Notes under the pieces: generated by a model | Databases searched by the model: none | Told to the model about the DNA's origin: nothing | The model's input: the letters and a program-made list of their open reading frames with translations, nothing else | Assembly (NCBI GenBank): GCA_031763025.1 | Contig: JASSKH010000030.1 | Span: 1,247,197-1,311,196 of the forward strand | Direction: 5' to 3' | Length of the DNA: 64,000 bases | Origin: Macrocystis pyrifera | Lineage: Eukaryota; Sar; Phaeophyceae; Laminariales; Laminariaceae | Program-made: the position numbers and the translations under genes | Part shown: positions 9,391 through 12,300 of the stretch, one piece after another | Numbering within the stretch: position 1 is the first letter of the stretch | Layout of the letters: every line of letters begins with the position of its first letter

Positions 9391-12300
9391 GTGTGTGTTG
9401 GGTTTGGATTGTCGTACAAGCAGTATTGCATTTGCTTGCCACTTGGAAAGGCCTCAGCGCCGTGGCGACGACTTCAGAAGACGTCTCCCCCTCTCCGCTG
9501 ACGGATTGGACTGCTGTGCCAAGTTGCCATCTTCACATACATCGCCACCCCAACGAACCACATGCATATTTTTCGAGCACCAGGTATTATTAGTCACCAA
9601 GCAGCGTACTCAGTCAAACGCTAGATACTGCTGCCTGTGCCTCTGACAGGCTTTTTGTTGTGTTGCTTTTTGCCCCATGGTACGCAGCATTTTGTGGACC
9701 GGGCGTCCATTGGCAGCCGTAGTGCTGGTGTTCTTGGCCAAGATGTGCCAAGCCAATCGTGCATCGAGATGGATCGTCCACATTGCCTTGCGCCCTGGGT
9801 ATTGCCCGCACTGAAAACCCTCCTGGCTTTTGCTTCATCACTGTTGCGTCACCGGGCACGAAATACAGGGTCCACTATTACTGATAAAATACTATATACG
9901 TGCTATTACTATTATAAGATCATGTCCTTCTTCCGCATTTCGAAGCCTCGCTCCGGCTCTCTCTCTCGTTTTCAGTTGGCTGTGGCTGTTTCTTGTCGCT
10001 GTATCTACTGCTTGCTGTACATATCTGTAACAGGCACGGTAAATATAGGCAGGCAGGGCGGTAGGTAGGGATATGCCACACATTTTGTCGTCGCTGACCA
10101 CAAGCACAGATGACATGCTTGGCTTTGTGCATAGATTGCCCACAAGGCAATCACAGCACCGGCACGTGAGGCAAAGATGAGAGTTATCGTACTCCTGTGT
10201 ATCATGTCCGCGGCAACGTTGAATCTCGTACATCGTTCTTCGTACCGTACCGACTGCCGTATTTCCTGCATGAGGCGATACAATGAAACCCGTGTGTGTC
10301 CTTCGTTCTTCATCCAGCACATTTGTCAACCAGTGTCCGTGCGATTCTTCAATCAATCCTATTGATCGAAGAGATTCAAGTTCTGCGGTCGCAAAGCTAC
10401 GCCACAGAGATACCAGGTACTACGTTGCCACGTACCAGGTATGCAGTAACTGGTAAGCACAGCAGTAGTGGGCAATGCAATGAATGCCATGTCATCATAC
10501 TGGATACGAAAGGCACAACATACACATTCCATGAAATAGAGAAACGAAACTCTCATGTACAAGGAGGAGAAAAAAAAAACATGAACAACGACAAATTGAA
10601 AGAGAAAAGGAAACAAGGAAGACATATAAGAAACAAACTGTTGTCGTGCCCCCCCCTCGCAGCAGCGCAGGGGGTGTGGCAGACACTTGGAAAGAACAAG
10701 CTGGGAAAAAAAAGGAAGAAAAACACCACTACTGCTGTCGACGAATGCAGAAACGAAATGATAGATCGCGTGGCTAGATATCGGTTCGACTAGCTCTTAC
10801 AGACTGTCGCCTGCAGCTCCCTCTCTTCTTTCGTGTTGCTTCGTCCGCGCAGCAGATATCTGTCCTTCCTGAGTACGCATGCTTTCCGTCTGGCAGCCTT
10901 TCTGAAGTCCTTGCATCGTTTGTAGTGTATTCTGTTTTCATTCCAATTTTTTGTTTTTGCTCCTATTTTGTTGGTCTCGCTTGTGCTGTTGTGTTATCGT
11001 ACCCGGTACGCTGGCATTTCACTTGCTTGACACTTAATTTGCGATTATTTATTTATTTGTTTTTATTTTTGGTCTTCCTCTGTCTCATAGCAGTCTGTGA
11101 CCACGGAATCAGTATCTCTCTAGGATAAGGAATCAGGACGGACACTGGGTGTAGTGATGAAGCTGGGTAGAAAGGACGATTTAATGTGAAGACAACAACA
11201 ACAACAACAACAACAACAACCACTACGCGTCGTAAACAGAGTAAGACTATTAACAGCTGTAAGAACCAAGGGAAAACAACAACAGACAAACCAAAGCACA
11301 AAGCATCCTCCAGGTAGCGGCAGCAGTTTATGGTACGAGCAGCTTAGCCAGGTTCTCCCTGCTAGTCCGCCTGGTACCTACGTACCTGTGATCGAAGCAT
11401 CACACACAGCTTGCAAATACCAGGCAGGTATGAGTTTCGACCAAATCCTCGATGTACAGCTCTTGTTTTTTAATGCTGTACAAAATATTTACCTGGTATA
11501 TACCTACTATTAATGTTATACAGCAGTTGTTTCGTATATTCACTGTAATATCGAACTGCTTTTACAGTACGACGTAGCCGCGGGGGGTTATTTCTTCAAT
11601 AGCAGTCCGAATGATTCCGCGCCGTCCTGCTCTCGTTTCTGTCTAGAGGCGACAGCGCGGGCAACAGCATGTGCAACCTGTGGCGTTGTCGATTTTGTAT
11701 ATACCAGTGGCACGCCAGGCGCTCCTCGACGTTCATCCAGGGCATTCTTTGGGGATCATCCCCCATAGATCCAGGGTACGCCGCGGGCTGGCGGCGGGCT
11801 GGTACACGTTGGTCGGACTTGACCCCACCTGCGCACCTATTTTTATGTTTTCTTTGACAGTTCTATTACGTGAAATTGACTGCTGCGCCAAAGTTCATAC
11901 GCCAAAAGTTCGAAGTTGAAAGTTGCACAACAAACAATGCGCCGTGTGTTCATGGCATGGAAAAGTGTTGCAACATTGCACGTGTGACGTAGACCGCAAC
12001 AGCCAGTAGTGGCCCCTCTGTAGTGCCGCTGTGCTCCAGCGAACGATATCGGCAATGTAGCGGCATCCGGCACTACTCGACACGCTACTTACCACACTGG
12101 CGAGTCCCATCTGTGCAAAGCGATTCTACAGACACTACTACGTAATCGTATCGGGTAACCGGAATATAGAGGGACCCTACATCTTGTTGTATTTAATAAT
12201 TTCCCCTAAAAAACACACACTACCTTCCCCACCAGTCCACCAGCAGGCGCACTTTTTTGTCGCCGCCTGCCGCACGTGGCCCATCTCGCGGTAGCCAACG

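Follow-up and report, generated by a model that had tools for sequence, protein, structure and literature searches.

The nine-nucleotide word TACCWGGTA is almost certainly an insertion scar in the genome of the kelp Macrocystis pyrifera, and very probably the footprint left when a transposon that inserts at TA is excised. Positions given here without a locus label refer to the window, the whole 64-kb stretch of contig JASSKH010000030.1 that was analysed. Within the window there are 24 exact matches on the plus strand, 14 of TACCAGGTA and 10 of TACCTGGTA, compared with a mean of 0.32 (maximum 2) in 100 dinucleotide-preserving shuffles of the window and an expectation of 0.48 under an order-3 Markov model. 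This agrees with a preliminary description of the same DNA, which had counted more than 20 copies by eye against an expectation of about 0.5 and had located them correctly to within three bases. Ranked by observed/(expected + 1) under the Markov model, TACCWGGTA is the top 9-mer of the window, and the runner-up among words of the form TA-x5-TA has a count of 7. Its one-base neighbours occur at roughly background levels in the window, with the exception of TACCSGGTA (4 against 0.54 expected). The preliminary description had called for a genome-wide count, and had named a lack of enrichment as an outcome that would speak against a scar. Across the assembly (537,376,219 bases in 223 sequences) we found 121,279 sites, or about one per 4.4 kb, compared with 2,421 for the reversed pattern that served as control. 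A 264-kb sample contains 73 sites against 2.34 expected; it is composed of the window and 20 loci, three of which (L006, L010 and L011) were picked near scars and the rest at round coordinates, and it excludes L001-L004 as well as L005 and L007-L009, which are four C1 array copies. The excess is real and genome-wide.

Comparison of paralogous copies reveals how the word arises. In a LINE fragment, in MITEs and in duplicated DNA, the filled copy differs from the empty one by a gain of 7 bp in which TA is duplicated, and in each informative pair, save a variant at 10447, TA has become TA-CCNGG-TA. The LINE fragment at 10290 carries the word twice where related copies have plain TA, as had been claimed: TACCAGGTA at 10411..10419 is a 7-bp TA insertion relative to the LINE copy at 1577, with flanks matching at 12/12 and 12/12 positions, and TACCAGGTA at 10433..10441 is one relative to the LINE copy near 28978 (10/12 and 8/12). 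The variant, TAACTGGTA at 10447..10455, was missing from the earlier list and is likewise a 7-bp TA insertion relative to the 28978 copy (8/12 and 11/12). The MITE at 6333 was also correctly described as carrying the word where its sisters have TA; its TACCAGGTA at 6390..6398 corresponds to an exact 7-bp gap in the L006 copy, and a run of Ts blurs the gap against several sister MITEs. Outside the window, the MITE at L013:8364 is filled and several sister MITEs are empty, L017:5743 is filled where L011 is empty (the two duplicates are 96% identical), and a CCCGG scar at L019:1892 has an empty neighbouring unit. The preliminary description had held that 7 bp gained without TA duplication, or a word ancestral to each repeat family, would tell against its reading; the LINE, MITE and duplicate alignments all show TA duplicated, and neither the LINE nor the MITE had the word ancestrally. 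The LINE label itself is based on an endonuclease domain that scores above its cut-off, the reverse transcriptase matches falling below theirs. Among the matches listed, the endonuclease protein is 49% identical to one from Ectocarpus and up to 65% identical to others; the LINE protein had no useful match in viral or genome contigs, and neither the MITE word nor the satellite word had one in viral contigs.

Two groups of sites call for more caution. The TACCTGGTA at 1749..1757 in LINE 1, absent from LINE 2, fits the scar pattern, yet its gap is not clean and one aligner places it inside a gap of 39 bp. In the satellite, TACCTGGTA is present at 30690..30698, 31022..31030 and 31465..31473, the first of these being missing from the units at 30583, 30806 and 30910, in line with what had been claimed, but these do not represent three insertions. 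All three belong to a single subfamily, beside which decayed versions are found at 31135, 31343 and 31668, and they are therefore counted as one old event. For 17 of the 24 sites there is no informative paralogue within the window. In addition, just a part of the 7-bp gaps are anchored at TA, namely 4 of 13 distinct indels in the window (10411, 10433, 10447 and 31929) and 1 of 7 in a wider set of alignments at least 85% identical, both being raw counts from which chance anchoring has not been subtracted; this we count against an excision footprint.

The remaining exact matches, which like all sites reported here are assigned no strand, are TACCAGGTA at 7146..7154, 14708..14716, 15204..15212, 18534..18542, 21054..21062, 35694..35702, 41442..41450, 50924..50932, 60472..60480, 61946..61954 and 63908..63916, and TACCTGGTA at 98..106, 11490..11498, 12382..12390, 15718..15726, 17627..17635 and 46158..46166. 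Five of these have a TA in common with a neighbouring word: the left TA of the match at 18534 also belongs to TACCAGTA at 18528 and that of the match at 21054 to TACAGTA at 21049, while the right TA of the match at 12382 also belongs to TACAGTA at 12389, that of the match at 46158 to TACCGGGTA at 46165 and that of the match at 61946 to TACTGTA at 61953.

A second line of evidence is the DNA surrounding the scars. For 22 window sites, symmetrised and with two satellite duplicates dropped, A occupies position -3 in 57% of cases compared with 28% at random TAs, and G makes up 10% of positions -2 to -8 compared with 23%. Neither measure reached such an extreme in any of 5,000 random TA sets or of 5,000 sets matched for AT content. 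Among 64 contexts from a 204-kb sample that includes the window, merged only where their 33-bp contexts were identical, A leads at -6 (52%) and -3 (55%), pyrimidine at -2 (65%) and purine at -1 (76%). Since the preferred letters lie outside the scar, they describe the landing place, and such a preference is difficult to account for other than by insertion. Tc1 has a palindromic, AT-leaning target consensus, and the preference around TA seen here is likewise palindromic and AT-leaning. That it is common to the sites points to transposition. Duplication of the TA target on insertion, a further Tc1/mariner trait, is seen in the empty copies.

We regard it as probable that the scars were left by the excision of a Tc1/mariner-like cut-and-paste element that targets TA and has CCWGG at its tips. 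The preliminary description had proposed excision of such an element with CC...GG ends, and the evidence supports it in that none of the adverse outcomes it named occurred; the element itself we infer. Ends of the form CC...GG are not a sufficient cause, as alone they do not account for five fixed letters. The element would insert at TA and duplicate it, the gain of TA being what the alignments display, and its terminal repeats would start with CCAGG or CCTGG. On excision, the non-transferred strand would be cut 5 nt inside each end, so that the flanks would end in TA-CCAGG-3'. The overhangs could then pair as C-G, C-G, A.A, G-C, G-C, and fill-in with mismatch repair would yield TA-CC(A/T)GG-TA. 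Two 5-nt CCAGG overhangs, mismatched only at the central A, would thus explain the fixed five letters. With frequent movement of the element, scars would come to outnumber its copies, as now seems to be the case.

We put the chance that cleavage leaves 5-nt overhangs at about even. Published Tc1/mariner overhangs are given as 2 or 3 nt, which counts against the explanation that we favour, and the dominant kelp scar leaves 5 nt where a Tc1/mariner footprint would leave 2 or 3; we have therefore filed the element as one that works like Tc1/mariner and not as a proven member. The A.A mismatch does not predict the S-centred scars, of which the 264-kb sample holds 11 against 1.5 expected, beside 73 W-centred ones, and this speaks against a 5-nt overhang. 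In the window these are TACCCGGTA at 11000..11008, 60501..60509 and 61963..61971, and TACCGGGTA at 46165..46173. Likewise, none of the three forms counted of the full 10-nt fill-in products possible from 5-nt overhangs occurs in 264 kb, which also argues against it. Two further counts, TA-CCAG-TA (25 against 10.6) and TA-CCAGGG-TA (8 against 0.5) in 264 kb, look like trimmed or extended forms of the scar. Long variants are also present in the window, TACCAGGCAGGTA at 7928..7940 and 11418..11430, the latter missing from a related copy near 24093, and TACCTGCCAGGTA at 35891..35903.

Scars of this kind are known; the length and abundance of those in kelp are unusual. The excision footprint of Sleeping Beauty and Frog Prince is described as C(A/T)GTA (PMC3878927). 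As in kelp, TA is duplicated and the short insert begins with C, ends with G and has A or T at its centre, and the kelp insert is similarly near-palindromic, with a central A at 14 and a central T at 10 of the window sites. The insert is 3 nt there whereas it is the 5-nt CC(A/T)GG here, and the kelp scar is known from the footprint alone. The Sleeping Beauty and mariner transposases are described as nicking three nucleotides inside the element, giving 3-nt 3' overhangs that become the footprint (PMC7827188). The central A/T of Sleeping Beauty can be read as the A.A mismatch of two CAG overhangs, and by the same inferred step CC(A/T)GG resembles a lengthened C(A/T)G, as would be expected of 5-nt overhangs. 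Mos1 offers another comparison, as its ends begin with CCAGG and the target of Mos1/mariner is TA. Its overhangs are reported as 3 nt in a paper whose main text does not contain the letters CCAGG (PMC4505599), whereas 5 nt are left in the kelp scar. Footprints of Stowaway and Osmar5 elements in grasses are given as 1-4 bp and varied (PMC1925063). There too, emptied sites hold TA-flanked bits of terminal repeat; the kelp scars, in contrast, are mostly of one 5-nt form and number some 10^5. A survey of another brown alga, Ectocarpus, lists 17 Mariner-Tc1 families with almost 12,000 copies, and its main text uses neither the word footprint nor the word excision (PMC12477816). Among the papers listed in a search of literature that included few subscription papers, none was recognised as a report of such scars or of a five-nucleotide Tc1 overhang; the string TACCAGGTA itself occurs in 119 papers, of which the 20 listed have unrelated titles.

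The most serious alternative, which we nevertheless hold to be unlikely, is that the overhangs are of the ordinary 3-nt length, with Mos1-like ends CCA and CCT that pair only at the last base to give CC-W-GG. Overhangs of 3 nt on the 3' strand are the documented case for mariner and Sleeping Beauty (PMC7827188, PMC4505599), and the central W would follow directly from a single A:T pair. Also in its favour, TA-CCA-TA (46 against 35.7) and TA-CCT-TA (24 against 16.4) are slightly above expectation in 264 kb. Against it, such ends predict mixed products, and TA-CCWWGG-TA is rare (3 against 1.1). A single base pair would also be a weak guide for a scar so uniform. Moreover, CCAGGCAGG (2), CCTGGCAGG (1) and CCTGCAGG (2), each with at most 0.03 expected in 264 kb, are leftovers longer than 3 + 3 nt allow and could not be produced in this way alone, although they amount to just 5 sites.

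It is improbable that the word is the repair signature of some other TA-duplicating transposase, or of a domesticated one engaged in programmed DNA removal. Transposases other than those of Tc1/mariner also duplicate TA, the scars are very numerous (121,279) and no parent is seen in the 204-kb and 264-kb samples, all of which would suit such an enzyme. Against this, the target preference and the neighbouring C(A/T)G-type scars fit Tc1/mariner, and from the sequence considered here we see no indication of developmental excision. We give little credence to direct insertion of a 7-bp unit at TA, by aborted integration or as end-joining filler, such that most sites never held a full element. We saw no occupied allele at any scar site, as this alternative would have it, and the high number of scars sharing a TA (5,620 against about 514, array copies included) could mean that a scar attracts more units. 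We know of no enzyme that inserts a fixed 5-nt unit in this way, and excision footprints of this general form are on record (PMC3878927). That the word is a host motif, whether a protein-binding or CCWGG methylation site or a slippage product under selection, is scarcely credible: the word is near-palindromic and contains CCWGG, but the empty sites led us to reject a motif or methylation origin, 7 bp with a duplicated TA having been gained in LINE, MITE and duplicated DNA alike and the target preference lying outside the word.

We searched for a parent with TA-flanked CC...GG ends. The preliminary description had stated that none was visible, which holds in the wider sample, as no convincing candidate was found in 264 kb. 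A scan for terminal inverted repeats (TIRs) as TACC...GGTA pairs in the window and the 204-kb and 264-kb samples returned only satellite, MITE and chance-level pairs; no stretch of the 204-kb sample has TACCWGG end pairs with 10/20 matching inner letters, and no repeated TACC-led TIR family is present in the 264 kb that hold 73 scars. Searched exon by exon at E 0.001, the assembly has no match to DDE_3 (PF13358), and this, together with the lack of a CCWGG-tipped element in the samples and of any occupied allele among the sites seen, counts against a Tc1/mariner-like source. The DDE_1 transposase domains (PF03184) that the assembly encodes count in its favour; there are 39 matches, none tied to scars, and 17 of them cover 170 or more of the 177 positions. 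DDE_1 is typical of pogo-like members. Two DDE_1 loci, L029 and L030, are 72.6% alike in their coding part and have subterminal repeats in common, and no TA-flanked TIRs or recognisable ends were found at either. A 764-bp element in L029 and L011 was rejected as the parent, as it has GGGCC ends and, by eye, a TAA-type duplication.

Tandem arrays with units of about 11.7 kb contain inverted TACCAGGCTCTASTGCGCA ends (135 matches), alike at 18/19 letters in one array unit, that bound a segment of about 10.6 kb and whose link to the scars is putative. Among the places listed, the arrays are on 15 contigs (C1, C7, C8, C11, C24, C73, C79, C82, C101, C103, C113, C129, C149, C153 and C160). No Rfam match was obtained in one 10-kb piece of the array (L009) and no Pfam domain at E 0.1 in 10 open reading frames from L006 and L009, and when the array end was sought under relaxed criteria in 265 kb of dispersed DNA, the best match had 14/19 letters. 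TACCWGGCTCTA occurs at 745 places genome-wide compared with 28 for the reversed control, single dispersed copies among them, and has T in the W position at 3 of the places listed. Two dispersed copies match the array for just 12 to 14 letters by eye, the aligner having set the array apart, and for this reason they may represent a longer scar and not a transposon end. Two readings of TACCWGGCTCTA can be given: it belongs to the end of the parent, of which it would be the first trace, or it is a scar of greater length, TA-CCAGGCTC-TA. Also in the arrays, about 3.6 kb at L007:2228-5856 is present in one C1 array copy and missing in four others, and related DNA occurs in L013 and L024; the alignments on either side overlap by about 9 bp, so it probably belongs to a different superfamily.

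The scars look young. The 24 words that differ from the scar by one base outside its centre occur 60 times in a 204-kb sample, where 39.6 would be expected and 66 scars are intact. Over eight positions this corresponds to about 4% substitution per site, a rough estimate in which the decayed satellite forms are counted. Genome-wide, 5,620 pairs of scars share a single TA, compared with 0 for the reversed control and about 514 predicted by random TA targeting (with the TA count scaled from the sample), but some of these pairs are tandem-array copies and the 11-fold excess is therefore an upper figure. The dispersed sample contains 5 shared-TA junctions, S-centred scars included, where about 0.7 would be expected of the W-centred class. 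Such an excess over random targeting counts against an excision footprint, and may mean that scars attract further hits; the letters of the scar match the target consensus only in part. Among the first doubles listed, CCAGG-CCTGG is common and CCTGG-CCAGG rare (one by eye), a bias of order owed partly to array copies.

Cut-and-paste elements are normally counted by their remaining copies. In this genome their departures may be countable, at about one per 4.4 kb, and if so the number of jumps, their age and their choice of target could be measured directly in a brown alga, and insertions of 7 bp, which break the reading frame, would make up a sizeable share of its mutations. We suggest only tentatively that a hit-and-run family of kelp transposons, cutting 5 nt inside its ends, left some 121,000 datable scars that attract further hits while keeping few copies of itself. 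Jumps in the germline could then be counted by reading the field of scars. A 5-nt overhang, if right, would widen the range of Tc1/mariner-type cleavage, as a 5-nt stagger is not given in the portions of the Tc1/mariner literature compared here.

Shorter TA scars accompany TACCWGGTA. In 264 kb, TA-C(A/T)G-TA occurs 93 times against 43.7 expected; TACTGTA at 27152, 41782 and 54111 has empty partners among paralogues, as has TACGGTA at 28713 and 54296. At -1 the C(A/T)G class favours C (50% against 20%), for which reason it looks like a second family, and these 3-nt scars suggest further Tc1/mariner-like families. TA-CG-TA occurs 158 times against 67 expected in 264 kb. Between duplicates, 4-bp differences of the form TA to TACGTA are seen at L007:3683, L011:742, L011:9660, L017:5093, L023:2039 and position 1155 of the window, and make up 6 of 11 TA-anchored 4-bp indels; the step could be a 2-nt footprint or slippage. 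TA-CAGCAG-TA or TA-CTGCTG-TA is found at 8251, 8385, 12421, 13683, 16781, 23266 and 37162 (7 against 0.16 in the window, and 24 against 1.6 in 264 kb), and several of these sites have, by eye, C...G flanks like those of the C(A/T)G class. Finally, a near-palindromic MITE about 110 bp long, which has TTACGGGGGACC at its ends and, judged by eye, TA on either side, is present at 13003-13118, 19017-19129, 22688-22802, 36301-36411 and 36472-36587.
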